Below, in pieces: positions 10,454 to 16,295 of a stretch of DNA of 20,701 bases. This stretch comes from a virus. The position numbers and the translations under genes are program-made. A model generated the notes under the pieces. That model saw nothing but the letters and a program-made list of their open reading frames with translations. It ran no database searches and was not told where the DNA came from. Every line of letters begins with the position of its first letter. Position 1 is the stretch's first letter. Location: the IMG/VR virus record IMGVR_UViG_3300049855_000184, positions 1 to 20,701 of that record; one strand, 5' to 3'.

Positions 10454-10794
10454 CCTGCTGACGCTCCTGTTTCAACATCAATATACATTACATCTTTGAG
10501 TGCACTATATCGTATACCCGTAATTGCACCAAGCCAAGTACCACTAGAAGTACGAACACGGTCACGAGTAACGAGTTCCTGACTAGGGTTGACCCTTGCA
10601 ATGAGCGTAAGTTGTCTCGTGTTTTGTTCGTACGGGGCTTGTATATTTTCGCTTGCAGTAACTTGTTCATTTTCCACCTGACACCAACATGTGCGAATAG
10701 GTAGCCATGTACGTACTGGAGCGCCATTAGTGTCTGTCGACTCAACAGGACGTTCAAATATGACTCGAGTTGTAGCTAACCCTGAGTTAAACAT
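10450..10794 (-). CDS. Head closure protein (SPP1 gp16-like adaptor)
   Basis: The 114-residue protein is a small beta-barrel type. It has an N-terminal RVIFERPVESTDTNGAPVRTW, typical of head-tail joining proteins, where a strand with several Arg/Glu residues is followed by a loop with D-x-x-G-x-x-x-x-x-W. The C-terminal half has a TRDRVRTSSGTWLGAITGI strand-turn-strand and ends YIDVETG. These proteins form a ring under the connector that closes the filled head. The gene is in a TAATG junction with the connector gene upstream, with GAGGG five to six bases before the ATG, and a GTGA junction with the neck gene downstream. Order and length agree with the call. Confidence 0.72.
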   Translation of the reverse strand: MFNSGLATTRVIFERPVESTDTNGAPVRTWLPIRTCWCQVENEQVTASENIQAPYEQNTRQLTLIARVNPSQELVTRDRVRTSSGTWLGAITGIRYSALKDVMYIDVETGASAG

Positions 10795-11363
10795 TAGACC
10801 CTCGGAACATAGTAACGACTGAGATTTCCAGCCATTATAGTTTCAGCATAGACGTTAATCATTTCAGTGTTTGAACGCTGCTGGTAAAGTGAAAGCGCGA
10901 GTTCAAAAGTACTGAGCTTAATATCATCTGGCATATCAGCACCTGTAGCAAAACCAACTTCGATTTCTAACGGCCAAACAGATGGTGCCGGAACCCACTT
11001 AGGCGCCTGGTAGTCGTCAAACCCATGTTGCATACCGGCCATAACAGTATTGCGCAATGGTAACTGGTACATTTCATAGGTCTGGTAATTCTCTCCCACC
11101 AACCATTCGTAAGTTGCAAACTTGACTGGCATACCAGTCCATTGTTCAATGCGACTCATTGCAGCGTTCAGATACAACTTACACAAATCGTCATCGTCTG
11201 GAAAGTCAATGCGGGCATGTTGCTTGAACATCGGCATGATATCTTCGGTCAGAGTTGACGGAGTAATATCAGCAACCCGTGTCAAAGTTCCGATAGCTTC
11301 GAGCAGCATCCAACCATTATTGTTGAGTCCAACAGCTGTTGGTGACCACAAGAAGCAACTCAT
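10794..11363 (-). CDS. Head-tail connector, gp6-like
   Basis: The 189-residue protein begins after a near-ideal ribosome site (GGAGGT five bases before ATG 11363). The region about 33-80 matches the gp6/Gp15-type connectors: LTEDIMPMFKQHARID, then DDDDLCKLYLNAAMSRIEQWTG, with the usual R-I-D, D-D and A-x-x-x-I-E pattern. A beta-rich segment (about 85-145) and a C-terminal helix (LSTFELALSLYQQRSN) complete the fold. In HK97-like phages this protein docks beneath the portal and lengthens the DNA channel. Here it does not follow the portal directly: three accessory genes separate them. The first 30 residues (MSCFLWSPTAVGLNNNGWML) are an unusual extension. Confidence 0.8.
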   Translation of the reverse strand: MSCFLWSPTAVGLNNNGWMLLEAIGTLTRVADITPSTLTEDIMPMFKQHARIDFPDDDDLCKLYLNAAMSRIEQWTGMPVKFATYEWLVGENYQTYEMYQLPLRNTVMAGMQHGFDDYQAPKWVPAPSVWPLEIEVGFATGADMPDDIKLSTFELALSLYQQRSNTEMINVYAETIMAGNLSRYYVPRV

Positions 11364-11737
11364 TTACCACCTCCGTAAACCTGTAAAATCATGGTTTGGT
11401 TCTGATTCCAGAGTTTATCAAACTCTTTTTGACGCATACCAATACATCCAGCGCTTAGCTTATTGTCTTTCGTTGTTTCAGAATCAATCTGGTCTGTACG
11501 CGATGGTAAGTTAGTATGTATAGCGTACACACCAGATTCGTCCCGTTTAAACACAAGCATATTCATTTTTAGCTTAGTACTATAAGCCTTTTCTAGTACG
11601 TACACACCTTCTGGAGTTGGTGTGCTTGGTTTACCGACTACCACAGGTGCTTTGAATGCTAACTGTGGGTTCTCGACAAACACTGTAGCTTGGTCAATAT
11701 TGACCAAGACTACAATGCTTAAAAACATTTGCCTCAC
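11360..11737 (-). CDS. L,D-transpeptidase (YkuD-type) inside the head-tail operon
   Basis: This protein is 125 residues from GTG 11737, which forms a GTGA overlap with the gene before; ATG 11728 is the alternative. It shows the YkuD fold signature: a first strand pair with VFVENPQLAFKAPVVVGK, then TPTPEGVYVLEK, and the catalytic block with H74 in YAIHTN and S95-A-G-C98-I in LSAGCIGM, the expected His...Ser-x-Gly-Cys order. C98 would be the nucleophile. L,D-transpeptidases form or exchange 3-3 peptidoglycan cross-links or attach proteins to peptidoglycan. At about 125 residues it is essentially a lone catalytic domain without LysM or peptidoglycan-binding repeats. The hydrophobic start (FLSIVVLVNI) reads as the first beta-strand rather than a clear signal peptide, so access to the periplasm is uncertain. 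Role in the phage is unknown. Confidence 0.83.
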   Translation of the reverse strand: MRQMFLSIVVLVNIDQATVFVENPQLAFKAPVVVGKPSTPTPEGVYVLEKAYSTKLKMNMLVFKRDESGVYAIHTNLPSRTDQIDSETTKDNKLSAGCIGMRQKEFDKLWNQNQTMILQVYGGGK

Positions 11738-12606
11738 CGGCCTTTAACTTGTGTGTCGATTACGATTGGTGGAACTACAACTGGTGGGTCTGGAACGATT
11801 GGCTGAGTTGGTGCTGGTGCAGTGTACTTACAAGCAGCACCAAGCACAGCGCCGATATCAACCTTGTCGTTTTTGCAGAGATAGTCAATAGCCATACCAG
11901 TGTCAAGACCAGCTAGTATGCGGGCGTTTTCACGTACTTGGCATTGAACATCTTGCTTTGCACCACCCAAACTAACTCCAACACCTAATGCAGAAGCTGC
12001 ACCAGAAATACCACCGGCAGTACAAGCAGAGCTACTATAAATGTTGGGGGCAATTGCACCTACATTGTTGCCGTACTTGTTGTAGTGGTCAGCTTTACCC
12101 GTGCCTTCGAACGTGATGTTCGTGGATTGGCTGGAGCTGTTGTTTGAGCTGTTACTATTATCACTGGATTGGCTTTGCCCTTGATAAGCACTACCACCTT
12201 TACCACCTTCACCACCACGCCCACCTTCGGCAACATTCAGATTGGTGTTTGAACTTTCGTTCGAGTTCTTGTTGTAGTCACTGGTATTTACACCAACTCC
12301 TACAGCAACACCAACTTCATTGGAGTTACGAACCGAGTTGTAGTTATCAGCAGAAGCGCCGGCAATGGCACCCGCTACAGCAGTTGCATCAGCTGACTGA
12401 CTTTGACCTTGGGCTTGACCTTGGTTTTGCCCTTGAGCTTGAGCTTGGTTTTGCCCTTGAGCTTGCCCTTGGTCTTGGTCTTGTTCGTACTGGGTATCTG
12501 GTGATTGTTTCGGGCCGCAGTTACCACGGCAGTCACCACCTTCGTAGTTGGTAGCCTGAGCAAATCCACTCAGGGCGAATAATGCAAGTAACAATAAAAT
12601 ACGCAT
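11734..12606 (-). CDS. Secreted Gln/Ser/Asn-rich low-complexity protein, unknown function
   Basis: This 290-residue protein has a textbook Sec signal peptide: MRI, then a Leu/Ala core, and a likely cleavage after AQA at residue 18. GGAG lies nine bases before ATG 12606. The mature part has CRGNC (C26, C30), a Gln-x repeat (residues 42-71), an Asn/Ser-rich region with a Gly-rich core (GGRGGEGGKGG), and a better-conserved-looking C-terminal domain (about 190-270) with SSSACTAGGISGAASALGVG and four more cysteines. It ends in a Pro/Val/Ile-rich tail. I do not recognise the family. Even cysteine number and the leader suggest a periplasmic or outer-surface protein with disulfides. There is no lipobox Cys at the cleavage site. 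It overlaps the L,D-transpeptidase gene, so the two probably act together on the host envelope. Confidence 0.72.
   Translation of the reverse strand: MRILLLLALFALSGFAQATNYEGGDCRGNCGPKQSPDTQYEQDQDQGQAQGQNQAQAQGQNQGQAQGQSQSADATAVAGAIAGASADNYNSVRNSNEVGVAVGVGVNTSDYNKNSNESSNTNLNVAEGGRGGEGGKGGSAYQGQSQSSDNSNSSNNSSSQSTNITFEGTGKADHYNKYGNNVGAIAPNIYSSSACTAGGISGAASALGVGVSLGGAKQDVQCQVRENARILAGLDTGMAIDYLCKNDKVDIGAVLGAACKYTAPAPTQPIVPDPPVVVPPIVIDTQVKGR
12394..12483 (-). repeat. Tandem Gln-x coding repeat
   Basis: Residues 42-71 of the secreted protein alternate Gln with Asp, Gly, Ala, Asn or Ser. The DNA is built from degenerate hexamers of the CAAGGN/CAAGCN type, including two copies of CTCAAGGGCAAAACCAAG. 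Copy number in such tracts can change by slippage, so length may vary between relatives. Confidence 0.8.
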
Positions 12607-12620
12607 AGCAATTTACTCCC

Positions 12621-13736
12621 TTATTTTAAGTTAGCGAAAATGGATTTGAACGACTCAAAATCAACTGCTCCATCTACAGCTGCTTTGATTTTAGAAAGCG
12701 TTATAACTTCGTCTGGGTACATAACAGTGTGTAACGAACCATCAGTCATTTCCAACACAAAACCTTCGTCACCACTCACTACACCTTTAATTGAAACACC
12801 TGCATCACCTTTTGGTCCAGCAACTGTAGAAGCTTCACCACGGTCACCTTGCTTTCCTTGTTTACCACGACCGGCTAGTAACACCGTGCCTGTAGTAGTT
12901 TCCAGAAATGTACCAAAATCTTTCGCGTAAATATCACCAACTTCGTAAGCAACATCTTCACGGAAAGCTCCTTTGTGGCGCATGCCGAATGTACCTATAC
13001 GCTTCCAGTCTTCACTTACTCCTGGTTCAGCGCTGGTGTCTTTGACTGAGGTGAAGTATTGTCCGAGGTAGTGCTGTACGATTGTGCCTTCTCGGTGGAT
13101 GCCATCAGTCCATTGTTTTGCATCCAAGCCGAGACCATCGCGACCGATATAGCCTGCCACAGTTTTGACCTGGTCAAGTTCTTTCTTGAGGTTGTCATAG
13201 TTTACCTGTATGTCCAGTATTTCTTCAAGGTTTTCTTGTACACTTTTCTTGGTGTCTTGAATACTTTCAACAATAACTTCGAGTTTGTCGTCAGTGTCTT
13301 CGTTTGAATCGTTCAACTTTTTGTTGAAGTTTTCAACGGCAATATCTAACAGAGCAATCGTGCCATTGTTCAATTCTTCTGACTTATTCGCAACTTGTGT
13401 GTATTCAGTTGTCAAGTCAAGTAGTGCACTTTCAAGATTGGTTGTTGTGACTGACACTGCAGTCTTAACATTATCAATTTCTTGCACAATCAACTGGCGC
13501 AATTCTTGGTCAACAAAAGTTGTCTTGTTCAGAAATGTTTGCTGGGTGACTTTGACTTCCTCAACCAAAGCAGTGTACATCGACTTCACTTCATCAACCA
13601 ATATTGCTACGGTTTCAGGTGAAGCGCCTGGTTCTATACTAGCAATTTTGGACGTAACATTTGCAACCTGGTCTTCAAGTTTTTTGTCTAACGCGGCAAT
13701 GGCTTGGGCAACAGCCTTCAAAATGACCTCGCTCAT
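12621..13736 (-). CDS. Coiled-coil fibre with carbohydrate-binding-like modules and collagen-like stretch
   Basis: The 371-residue protein starts in an ATGA overlap with the portal, with GGAG eight bases upstream. Residues 1-195 are almost wholly helical with heptad-like spacing, predicting a long trimeric coiled coil. Residues 209-249 (QWTDGIHREGTIVQHYLGQYF to EDWKRIG) resemble the small Trp/Tyr carbohydrate-binding modules of the CBM5/12 type. A second similar unit follows at 252-281 (HKGAFREDVAYEVGDIYAKD). Residues 289-312 contain collagen-like Gly-x-y triplets (GRGKQGKQGDRGEA, then GPKGDAG). A compact C-terminal domain ends the protein. This architecture is that of a phage fibre or whisker. 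Since it lies beside the portal and before connector genes, it may be a head or neck fibre rather than a tail fibre, which is inference. Confidence 0.68.
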   Translation of the reverse strand: MSEVILKAVAQAIAALDKKLEDQVANVTSKIASIEPGASPETVAILVDEVKSMYTALVEEVKVTQQTFLNKTTFVDQELRQLIVQEIDNVKTAVSVTTTNLESALLDLTTEYTQVANKSEELNNGTIALLDIAVENFNKKLNDSNEDTDDKLEVIVESIQDTKKSVQENLEEILDIQVNYDNLKKELDQVKTVAGYIGRDGLGLDAKQWTDGIHREGTIVQHYLGQYFTSVKDTSAEPGVSEDWKRIGTFGMRHKGAFREDVAYEVGDIYAKDFGTFLETTTGTVLLAGRGKQGKQGDRGEASTVAGPKGDAGVSIKGVVSGDEGFVLEMTDGSLHTVMYPDEVITLSKIKAAVDGAVDFESFKSIFANLK

Positions 13737-15157
13737 TTAGCAATCTCCGCTTGAGCGCTCTTTATGAGCTGCTGTAGTTTTAGGGTTACATAGTCTTCGT
13801 CTGCAAATTTGTCATTTAAACCATCATCAGTTCCGGTGTCTGTAACGTCACCAGAGCCGTCGTCTTCAGTACCAGTGTTCGACGGCGCTGTGGTTTTACC
13901 CGCTGATGGTGCTGCAGGAGCAGGTTTAGCGTCTTCAAGTCTTACGTTCTGAGCCTGTACACGAGGCTCATCACCATAAGGAACAGAATCAAGACCCACG
14001 CGATTTCGTGCCTCGTTAGGTGAGTAAATGCCGTTTTGAGTTGCTTTAGAAAGCGTATTGATTTCTGTTTCAAAGTCGGCACGAGCTACGTTTTCCAAGT
14101 CGAAGCGCACGGTATCCACGTAGTGGTCCATGTTAAACAGTGATTCAAGATTAAACTCAATGAGTTCAGCAACATACAACAAAGAGCCGGCTTTAAACTG
14201 ACCAATCAACGTTGCAACAGAGTTGGCACCGACGTTATTCTCAGTACCTAGCAATGGAAGTGGGACACCAAACACTCGTGCAATATCAATAACAGAAGCA
14301 TTGTACGCTTGAAGAAGTTGGGCGTCATGTGCTGTAACCGACATTGATTGCCAAGTTAATCCGTTGGCGAGCACTGGAACTTTACCTTGGTTTACACCTT
14401 TGGTCACTTCATCAAATCGTTCACGCAACTCAACCATTTGAGAACCACTCAGATTAGCGTCGGTTGACAGTATACCTGATGGTCGTGACATATTGGTTGT
14501 GAACGCAGCCGTAGAACCAAGCACTGCATCATTGACTGCCAACGAAGCATAAGCATATGTAATTGGTGAGTCACCTTTTAGTACTGAGTTTCTTGAAGGC
14601 AACTTGACATGAAATACATCACGTGCTGGCACAATCCAGTCAAAATCAAGTGTCTCGTAGAAGTCACCATTGTTACTAAGGTCGTAGTACAACTCACCAT
14701 TCGGGGCAATAAATGCACGTTGTCCATTTGCAGTCAATGGCACTAACTCGTCTACCTCGTTACGGTCATTACGCTTAATGTAACAATAAGCATTGCCATA
14801 CAACATCAACGAAACTACCAACCATCCAATGAAGTCCACTGCATTTTGAGCAGGGTTTGGGTTCATCATTATACGATGCGCTACGCTGTTGGTGACGATT
14901 AAGCGTCCACCTTTTTCAGTGACACGAGTGTGGTTAGGGTATGATGCTGCAAGAATACGTGAAATGGTCATTACACATGCCATAACGGTCCCGTTCACAC
15001 CACAAGGGTTTCCACCAAGATTGCGTTGGAATCCATCACCACGTGGTATAAGGAACATGTTTCCACGCTCGCCAATACCCGCAGTCTCGCGCCACTGACC
15101 TTCTGGAGCGTCACTGAGGTGGAACATTTTACGAACAAAGTTTGGTATTAGTTTCAT
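13733..15157 (-). CDS. Portal protein, HK97 family
   Basis: The 474-residue product carries the HK97/phage-portal pattern: ACVMTISRILAASYP near residue 60, AVDFIGWLVVSLMLYGNAYCYIKR (about 108-131), a central ARDVFHVKLP and DSPITYAYASLAVNDAVLGSTAAFTTNM, and the typical VIDIARVFGVPLPLLG segment (about 305-320). These are the wing, stem and crown parts of the dodecameric ring that DNA passes through. ATG 15157 is preferred since it gives an ATGA overlap with the gene before; ATG 15184 would add nine residues and a 31-base overlap without a ribosome site. The C-terminal 70 residues form an acidic, Pro/Thr/Asp-rich tail. The gene is downstream of capsid and two accessory genes, an unusual place. 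Confidence 0.9.
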   Translation of the reverse strand: MKLIPNFVRKMFHLSDAPEGQWRETAGIGERGNMFLIPRGDGFQRNLGGNPCGVNGTVMACVMTISRILAASYPNHTRVTEKGGRLIVTNSVAHRIMMNPNPAQNAVDFIGWLVVSLMLYGNAYCYIKRNDRNEVDELVPLTANGQRAFIAPNGELYYDLSNNGDFYETLDFDWIVPARDVFHVKLPSRNSVLKGDSPITYAYASLAVNDAVLGSTAAFTTNMSRPSGILSTDANLSGSQMVELRERFDEVTKGVNQGKVPVLANGLTWQSMSVTAHDAQLLQAYNASVIDIARVFGVPLPLLGTENNVGANSVATLIGQFKAGSLLYVAELIEFNLESLFNMDHYVDTVRFDLENVARADFETEINTLSKATQNGIYSPNEARNRVGLDSVPYGDEPRVQAQNVRLEDAKPAPAAPSAGKTTAPSNTGTEDDGSGDVTDTGTDDGLNDKFADEDYVTLKLQQLIKSAQAEIAK

Positions 15158-16074
15158 GGCGTTGGTGTATTCTCCAGCATCCAAGTTTTGAGTTGTCTGA
15201 GTTCATAGTCAGACAACCAACGGTTAATGAAGAACGTTGGGCCCAGTCCAGTAAAGGGTGTGGTTTGTCCCGCAAGCATAAACGATTGAATACGGAATGT
15301 GGCAGAACCCGGTGCAGAGTAACCAGAAGTCAAATCCCAAGTGTCATCGTTTAAAATTAGTTGTTGCTCAGTAAATGACGAGTCAAACCGAGCGCCGAGA
15401 CAAAATGGTTGGTTTGATGGTGGTGCTGGTTGGTCTGGTGGTTGCACAAACCCGGAAGCTCCAGACCATAGTTGTGGTCTAATTAAACCATCTGTGCGTT
15501 GGGTTAATCCAAGCGTGATACCAACAGTACCTAATGCGTTCATTATAGCCAAGCTAATTAACGTATTATTATTACTAGGTGAGCCTTCTGCAAAGTTGAC
15601 ACACGCACCACAAACAATTGTGACTTTGTCTAAACTTGACAAATTTCCAGAGCGTATCGACATACGACCATTAGCACGCGCTGGGTCAAACGCTAGTAAC
15701 CCACCTTCATAAACGGCTGAATCACCAGCAGCTGTGCGGCTCAAGTTAAACTGTCCATTTTCATCAACAATAAACTGTACTATATCTCCATCACCCGTTA
15801 CTGGAACTACTGGGCCAGCTGATGTTTGGAACAGAGAGTTGATGTCGTTTGGGTTGTAAAGACCTGCAAGGTCGCCTGGTCTAATAAGGTCAAGCGGCGA
15901 AAACGAATAACTGAATGGAAAAGCGCTGAGTGGAAGCATCGTAAAATACGGTTGGTACCCAGCAGGGCCTTCAAATATTTGGGCGCGGCCGGCAGCTTGT
16001 TCAGCTTGCGCAAACGCATTTGGCACTTCTTGAATGAAGTGCCCGTCCCAAATAATTGAGTGTGTTAAACTCAT
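15154..16074 (-). CDS. Putative capsid-surface protein: docking module plus lectin-like domain
   Basis: This 306-residue protein shares its first 54 residues with the small protein encoded just before it (28 identities, no gaps), centred on WDGxFIQ, QAAG, QI-x-EG and GYQP. After this comes a Pro-containing linker (about 55-75), then a beta-rich domain of about 230 residues. That domain resembles concanavalin A/LamG-like lectin folds, with YEGGLLAFDPARANGRMSIR, KVTIVCGACVNFAEG, FCLGARFDSSFTEQQLILND and a closing FINRWLSDYELRQLKTWMLE, the last being a common end of such domains. Location directly after the major capsid gene and before the portal suggests a decoration protein that displays a sugar-binding domain on the head. 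Function is inferred; the lectin-like fold is moderately sure. Confidence 0.62.
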   Translation of the reverse strand: MSLTHSIIWDGHFIQEVPNAFAQAEQAAGRAQIFEGPAGYQPYFTMLPLSAFPFSYSFSPLDLIRPGDLAGLYNPNDINSLFQTSAGPVVPVTGDGDIVQFIVDENGQFNLSRTAAGDSAVYEGGLLAFDPARANGRMSIRSGNLSSLDKVTIVCGACVNFAEGSPSNNNTLISLAIMNALGTVGITLGLTQRTDGLIRPQLWSGASGFVQPPDQPAPPSNQPFCLGARFDSSFTEQQLILNDDTWDLTSGYSAPGSATFRIQSFMLAGQTTPFTGLGPTFFINRWLSDYELRQLKTWMLENTPTP

Positions 16075-16295
16075 TCGTCTTCGTCAGGTGCAGGTGGTGG
16101 AACTACTGGTTGCACGAGTGGTGGAACAACTGGAAATGGAAACTCACTTGAGTTTTTCATTTGCCAGCCGGGTTGGTAACCTTGTGTACCTTCCCAAATT
16201 TGTACTTCACCGGCAGCTTGCTTTGTTGCTGCTTCAGCTGCTGGCATGTTTTGTATGAACTCGCCATCCCAAACTACTTCAATTGCTCTTGACAT
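16071..16295 (-). CDS. Small putative capsid-docking protein with Pro-rich tail
   Basis: The 74-residue protein consists of the same roughly 54-residue N-terminal module as the next gene (WDGEFIQ, KQAAG, QIWEGTQGYQP), followed by a Pro/Val-rich tail and an acidic PDEDE end. GGAG lies seven bases before ATG 16295 and the 3' end overlaps the next gene as ATGA. It follows the capsid gene, separated by an intrinsic terminator. Known capsid decoration proteins often sit here. I infer that the shared module binds the capsid and that this gene makes a minimal, undecorated version. No characterised family was recognised. Confidence 0.6.
   Translation of the reverse strand: MSRAIEVVWDGEFIQNMPAAEAATKQAAGEVQIWEGTQGYQPGWQMKNSSEFPFPVVPPLVQPVVPPPAPDEDE

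Follow-up and report, generated by a model that had tools for sequence, protein, structure and literature searches.

What brings a YkuD-fold enzyme and a secreted low-complexity protein together between the portal and connector genes of a phage, and what could the two proteins achieve as a pair? The locus lies in a linear virus fragment of 20,701 bases (20.7 kb), analysed as a whole and called here the window. Its late operon, on the minus strand, codes for the terminase large subunit, an HK97-type major capsid protein, the portal, head-tail connector and head completion proteins, as well as tape-measure-like, NlpC/P60 and TipJ-type tail proteins. The fragment is incomplete, so that lysis genes may sit outside it. 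The interval between the portal and connector genes holds three ORFs, listed here with their flanks:

13733–15184, minus strand: portal protein (flank; PF04860, 5e-65)
12621–13736, minus strand: coiled-coil/collagen-like protein with weak tail-fibre similarity (flank; phrog_5073, E 5.8e-4)
11734–12606, minus strand: secreted low-complexity partner, 290 aa, phrog_20531-like (sequence, profile)
11360–11737, minus strand: YkuD-fold protein, 125 aa, modelled as catalytic domain only, with an alternative ATG start at 11728 (Pfam, profile, AlphaFold, Foldseek/VIA)
10794–11363, minus strand: head-tail connector (flank; PF05135, 8.9e-6; phrog_40)

The initial annotation placed the pair between portal and head-tail connector genes, which is borne out by Pfam (PF04860, PF05135 and, also among the flanks, head completion PF05521). 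Its description of the surroundings as purely structural needs refining at the gene adjoining the pair (12621–13736), whose product is coiled-coil/collagen-like. The coordinates, strand and GTGA junction stand. Translation of the enzyme could begin equally well at the ATG at 11728, preceded by GAGG, or at the GTG at 11737, which leaves the overlap of the two genes uncertain. Elsewhere in the window, two ORFs between the capsid and portal genes (15154–16074 and 16071–16295, minus strand) have related N-termini (WDG.FIQ..P.A...QAAG..QI.EG..GYQP). They apparently result from a tandem duplication and gave no match in the family searches applied to them.

For the 125-aa ORF, the match to Pfam YkuD (PF03734) has an E-value of 7.2e-13 and 49.8 bits (cut-off 23.4). 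A profile of 35 relatives from which the window sequence was excluded scores it at 41.8 bits for the best domain (E 9e-12), and none of 2000 shuffled versions reaches E 1 against that profile; the PHROG model of phrog_38499 gives only E 0.013. The AlphaFold model, computed with 32 relatives, has a pLDDT of 87.4 and a pTM of 0.81. Its residues 1–122 superpose in Foldseek/VIA-align on solved L,D-transpeptidases with Z 13–14.7, the best VIA match being 4xvo (Z 14.7, 113 residues, 2.6 Å). Since the model aligns over this length, the whole protein is, as modelled, a catalytic domain. The YkuD-type domain with H74 and S95-x-G-C98 that had been read from the letters is thus confirmed by the Pfam score, the residues themselves and a predicted fold that matches L,D-transpeptidases. 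The outcome named in the initial annotation as a refutation, a predicted structure lacking the YkuD fold, did not arise. The candidate catalytic residues are:

11516–11518, minus strand: codon of H74, candidate catalytic His, invariant in 36 aligned sequences (alignment A4)
11444–11446, minus strand: codon of C98, candidate catalytic Cys in S95-A-G-C98, invariant in the same 36 sequences (A4)

R80 and G97 are likewise invariant across these sequences. Measured against the published YkuD motif H-x(14-17)-[S/T]-H-G-C (PMC9638812), the window enzyme has H74, S95, G97 and C98, but its second His is replaced by Ala and the spacing is 20 residues. Its motif reads S-A-G-C-I-G, in which Arg at the position two residues after the catalytic Cys (C+2) is replaced by Gly; nearly all relatives have Asn there.

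The upstream gene codes for a protein with the following parts:

12553–12606, minus strand: Sec signal peptide, residues 1–18 (...GFAQA, then TN), read from the translation
12097–12501, minus strand: Q/G/N/S-rich low-complexity region, residues ~36–170, predicted disordered (pLDDT < 50)
11809–12081, minus strand: conserved C-terminal Cys domain, residues 176–266 (profile 49.5 bits, alignment A6)
11737–11751, minus strand: C-terminal tail QVKGR, which occupies the position of the lysine box described below and does not match K-K-x-x-E/Q/G

The N-terminus MRILLLLALFALSGFAQA reads in translation as a canonical Sec signal, and the protein holds six cysteines. Its C-terminal ~90–110 residues score 49.5 bits against a phage family profile that excludes the window (best of 2000 shuffles, 9.1). 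Judged by sequence, the partner belongs to the phrog_20531 secreted family, whose function is unannotated. The earlier description of a Sec-exported, cysteine-bearing low-complexity protein is therefore sound in its signal, its Q/G/N/S-rich middle, its cysteines and its family profile. The structure model of the whole partner is of low confidence (pLDDT 44).

Single-protein scans of viral contigs with either window protein or the portal yielded no usable relatives, L002 from these scans being a chance tblastn match across baseplate genes, and tblastn with the C-terminal domain of the partner gave no match. With the window enzyme, tblastn against phages gave none at 0.01 and, at E 10, only DLP5 and noise. 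The entry to the family was this weak match to gp121 of Stenotrophomonas phage DLP5, a YkuD-like protein of phrog_38499; gp120, encoded just upstream with a one-base overlap, is a signal-bearing Q/G-rich protein. This arrangement recurs in Summit, XacN1, PhiXhv-12, Ep032, phiXF1 and LucasX. Alignment-based scans of viral contigs, for which alignments A5 and A6 were too diverse, brought more than 30 further loci. In other phages, homologues of the two window proteins occur as pairs, since the upstream proteins of loci L012–L016 and others carry the window-type C-terminal domain. A scan of 84,980 bacterial and archaeal species genomes recovered only two loci, both with the pair, which indicates that the family is mainly viral within the reach of the search patterns. 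One of them, in Variovorax sp. Root411 (L056:3955-5333), lies 3 kb from an integrase-like (tyrosine-recombinase-like) gene and a tRNA-Gly gene; few recognisable phage genes are found near it, and it is possibly part of an integrative element or satellite. The open-access literature searched held no description of the enzyme–partner pair.

The pairing extends beyond this contig. A secreted protein is encoded upstream and on the same strand for 44 of 45 distinct phage YkuD enzymes (window included), mostly at a distance of no more than 130 nt, in a set drawn from Xanthomonas jumbo phages, Stenotrophomonas siphophages, metagenomic phages and two bacterial genomes. The single exception is a partial second enzyme copy. 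Other genes separate the partner from the enzyme in L037 (1.9 kb) and L038 (1.3 kb). As background, proteins both secreted and of low complexity are encoded by 3 of 242 more distant genes of such loci, and two of these three are the displaced partners of L037 and L038. The co-occurrence check proposed in the initial annotation thus gave a positive answer: the pair recurs in dozens of unrelated phages. Starting from the partner, a reciprocal search with its domain alone retrieved 36 loci, of which 22 have the enzyme downstream, eight of them on contigs missed by the enzyme search. With the CGPLQ-type partner (see below) as query, the enzyme was present in 6/7 loci, one of them as a broken remnant (a 37.5-bit fragment within a short open frame). 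This YkuD gene (L117:3473-3667, directly after the partner) seems broken and is possibly decaying. Partner-domain proteins also occur in Pelagibacter and Achromobacter phages with no enzyme nearby, which suggests that the partner can serve a purpose independent of the enzyme.

The location of the window pair in a structural operon is atypical for the family, whose members lie elsewhere among unrelated genes. It invites the thought that both proteins are virion components of the head-tail joining region, with a YkuD domain that acts on peptidoglycan during DNA entry. The place between portal and connector genes is what speaks for it; the partner bears a Sec signal, some of the enzymes carry signal peptides, and the pair lies at a long distance from recognised structural genes in DLP5, XacN1, LucasX and most metagenomic phages. 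A virion role is hardly credible and was rejected on account of the partner signal peptide and the non-structural settings elsewhere.

The partners belong to several unrelated families (CGPLQ domain, window-type domain, small protein B, SYWFGW barrel-like) and occur as three types. Type i is a low-complexity protein with a CGPLQ domain. Type ii combines low complexity with the window-type domain and often has an A/S/G/T-rich secreted protein before it and the small secreted protein B, whose sequence begins HAPQYMPGYPTAATIWPRV, after it. Type iii is a small barrel-like secreted protein ending in SYWFGW, accompanied by a tiny membrane protein, and resides in clusters with a GT2 synthase, a polysaccharide deacetylase and GH16. 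With the YkuD gene included, these phage-borne clusters (L039-L046, L075:10-2667) have an exopolysaccharide-like content. The signal-bearing YkuD proteins of two of them (L045:4860-5378, L046:4854-5378) have an EEVVVTG-type stretch after the signal, like the start of a TonB-dependent receptor. In another group (L012:5391-6395, L014:1657-2628, L015:5316-6287) the gene directly downstream of the YkuD gene codes for a caspase-domain (Peptidase C14) protein that ends in a hydrophobic C-terminal segment; the caspase domain is found in 3 of the 96 neighbour genes scanned.

In L075, types iii and ii are adjacent, each followed by its own enzyme, and then come GH16 and a phage lysozyme. Duplicate enzymes with different partners argue for dedication of each enzyme to its partner against general editing of the wall. 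By the latter, the enzyme would form 3-3 cross-links, exchange D-amino acids or trim tetrapeptides, delaying lysis, blocking a competitor's endolysin or readying the wall for the phage's own, and the partner would merely be co-expressed. YkuD enzymes do carry out such reactions (PMC12729407), and cyanophage Mic1 gp80, an annotated L,D-transpeptidase, is expressed late (PMC11237433). Wall editing is nevertheless quite unlikely here: it needs no adjoining secreted protein, yet 44 of the 45 enzymes have one, and L075 places a different partner set beside each of its two enzymes.

A second feature shared across unrelated partner families is a C-terminal lysine box, [KR][KR]x(1-3)[EQG] (K-K-x-x-E/Q/G). 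Of the genes that immediately precede the enzyme, 29 of 45 end in it, compared with 38 of 878 background genes (4%); the statistics of these counts are weakened by the pattern having been spotted in the data before counting. Among homologues of protein B the box is present in 19 of 20 with the enzyme and in none of seven without it (naive Fisher 9e-6). On the tree this association comes down to four independent changes on the best topology and one on well-supported branches, and a tree-based test was not significant, with too few independent changes. The association is for this reason only a lead. The tail of the window partner, QVKGR, has a single Lys, third from the end, and departs from the box. 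That the box stems from ribosome-binding sites was rejected for loci with gaps of 23–130 nt; for the window tail it is possible, as the start of the next gene follows its codons closely. In the B proteins of L061, L064, L067 and L085, which have no adjoining YkuD gene, the last residue is a lysine (endings LCVK, TQWSK, LVCTK and EMCK), which resembles the host Lpp box.

The reading that we favour, at roughly even odds and from sequence comparisons, is that the enzyme is a phage L,D-transpeptidase dedicated to its cognate secreted phage proteins, which it joins to peptidoglycan. The two genes would form a phage envelope-modification module. Its partner would be exported by Sec to the periplasm with a flexible Q/G/N/S-rich segment and a small cysteine-bearing domain. 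C98 would take the meso-DAP carbonyl of the peptidoglycan stem tetrapeptide, and the YkuD protein would hand it to an amine of the partner, a lysine near the C-terminus being the likeliest. A phage secreted protein would in this way be fixed covalently to the host wall, as Braun's lipoprotein is by host enzymes. The module reading draws on the YkuD fold, the catalytic residues, the secretion signal, family membership and the recurrent linkage in unrelated phages. Phage proteins that are exported and have a lysine-rich tail are found repeatedly beside a YkuD enzyme, and attachment to peptidoglycan is the simplest account of this. Anchoring is plausible; its chemistry and purpose we infer, namely that transpeptidation would prevail over hydrolysis, that the partner would be the acceptor and that a lysine would be the attachment point. 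Of the envelope-remodelling roles suggested in the initial annotation, anchoring to peptidoglycan fits the comparative evidence best, while a block of superinfection and a strengthening of the wall gained no specific support.

Host systems provide the closest precedent. L,D-transpeptidases attach Lpp, OutB and Lpg1810 via lysines that lie at the C-terminus or close to it (PMC12274547, PMC12729407); a C-terminal Lys box is enough for attachment by the host enzymes (PMC12274547), and Lpg1810 is attached through its C-terminal Lys-Thr (PMC12729407). These systems (LdtA/B/C, Ldt03/Ldt84) share with the phage pair a YkuD enzyme and the export of an acceptor that has one or more C-terminal lysines (PMC12274547, PMC12729407). 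They differ in that enzyme and acceptor are both host proteins, the enzymes are exported, and the acceptor lysine sits at the very end of the chain or right beside it, whereas the lysines of the phage box are 3–5 residues away from the end. Envelope anchoring by L,D-transpeptidases is therefore already known for the host; here it would be virus-encoded and operon-paired.

Counting against anchoring are the lack of a signal on the window enzyme, the SAGC motif with Gly at C+2, the off-box QVKGR tail and the enzyme-free partners. The chief doubt is the chemistry, the loss of Arg at C+2 being a mark of DpaA; the second is access. In Gram-negative transpeptidases C+2 is Arg and in DpaA-like hydrolases Ala or Asn (PMC8263019), and in the alignment the Arg is absent from the window enzyme and from its relatives. 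DpaA/YafK has, like the window protein, a YkuD fold without Arg at C+2; it is a 246-aa exported host protein, with Ala or Asn at this position in most of its family where the window has Gly. A hydrolase of this kind would cut links between peptidoglycan and outer-membrane anchors and weaken the envelope for lysis, the partner disrupting the outer membrane or replacing the tether. The C+2 position, where the window has Gly and its relatives almost always Asn in place of the transpeptidase Arg, speaks for it, the missing signal peptide suits release alongside an endolysin, and an amidase gene is found directly upstream of the enzyme in L037 and a lysozyme gene two genes downstream in L075. Lysis genes are not recurrent in a Pfam census of 96 neighbour genes, on which ground a lysis-cassette reading was rejected. 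A true transpeptidase, LdtMt2, also has Asn at C+2. The hydrolase is unlikely also in that it does not account for differing partner families sharing a C-terminal lysine box, or for two enzymes and two partner sets in one phage.

As to access, the window enzyme has no canonical signal peptide and its chain begins within the catalytic domain according to the model and VIA. A crude hydropathy rule calls its N-terminus signal-like, while the model assigns these residues to the first strand. Most relatives likewise have no signal peptide; the enzymes of two lineages, L045/L046 and L086 module 1, have one of their own, which places their action in the periplasm. An enzyme that stays in the cytoplasm and acts on recycled stem peptides or a non-peptidoglycan substrate, its linkage to the partner being due to shared expression or joint horizontal transfer, would be in keeping with the missing signal of the window enzyme and most relatives. 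It is very unlikely: the first hairpin of relatives bears two conserved cysteines, as would befit an oxidising compartment, some versions have signal peptides, and the linkage is specifically to secreted proteins. For the signal-less enzymes of an anchoring module, release via the holin pathway at or before lysis would be one possibility; there is a published description of holin-dependent, non-lytic protein secretion (PMC9527704).

Among known phage proteins, members of phrog_38499 (DLP5 gp121, XacN1 ORF390 'L,D-transpeptidase') are, like the window enzyme, stand-alone YkuD proteins of ~115 aa with the invariant His and Cys and a secreted low-complexity partner directly upstream. The window member is 20–32% identical to them, has no hairpin cysteine pair, reads SAGCIG instead of TxGCIN and is part of a pair in a structural operon. 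Achromobacter phage JWDelta JJJA_0025, of phrog_20531, resembles the window partner in its signal peptide, GGNGG/QGQAQGQ repeats and C-terminal cysteine domain; unlike in the window, the flanks examined in JWDelta and in Pelagibacter phages have no YkuD gene. Module 1 of L086 (IMGVR_UViG_3300034417_000033) codes for a QGQAQGQ secreted protein with 32% identity over 122 aa to the window partner and a YkuD protein with a pairwise E of 3e-9 to the window enzyme. It differs in the signal peptide of its YkuD protein and in two small ORFs between the genes. The Tlde1 effectors of type VI secretion (T6SS L,D-transpeptidase-fold effectors) also have a YkuD-type catalytic domain without a separate peptidoglycan-binding domain (PMC9638812); unlike in the window enzyme, the (S/T)HGC motif is intact in Tlde1a, which serves its secretion system as an antibacterial effector.

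More tentatively, and with the odds somewhat against it, the family may constitute a dedicated surface-display system of tailed phages in which a viral L,D-transpeptidase, matched by the C-terminal lysine box to its own secreted substrates, covalently decorates the host peptidoglycan during infection. Its substrates would be low-complexity proteins, small barrel-like outer-membrane proteins and tiny membrane proteins. If true, viruses would have an equivalent of sortase-type protein anchoring for Gram-negative hosts. The family may also be a source of small, naturally occurring L,D-transpeptidases, perhaps with exchangeable acceptor tags. For phrog_38499 and phrog_20531, whose function is unannotated, the pairing supplies a testable enzyme–substrate hypothesis. 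The hypothesis specifies an active site and a candidate attachment motif, and it can draw on natural variants that have or lack the enzyme and on the cultured phages DLP5, XacN1 and LucasX. Phage enzymes that act on the wall are known for cutting it; if viruses widely attached proteins to it, this would be a new form of host remodelling.
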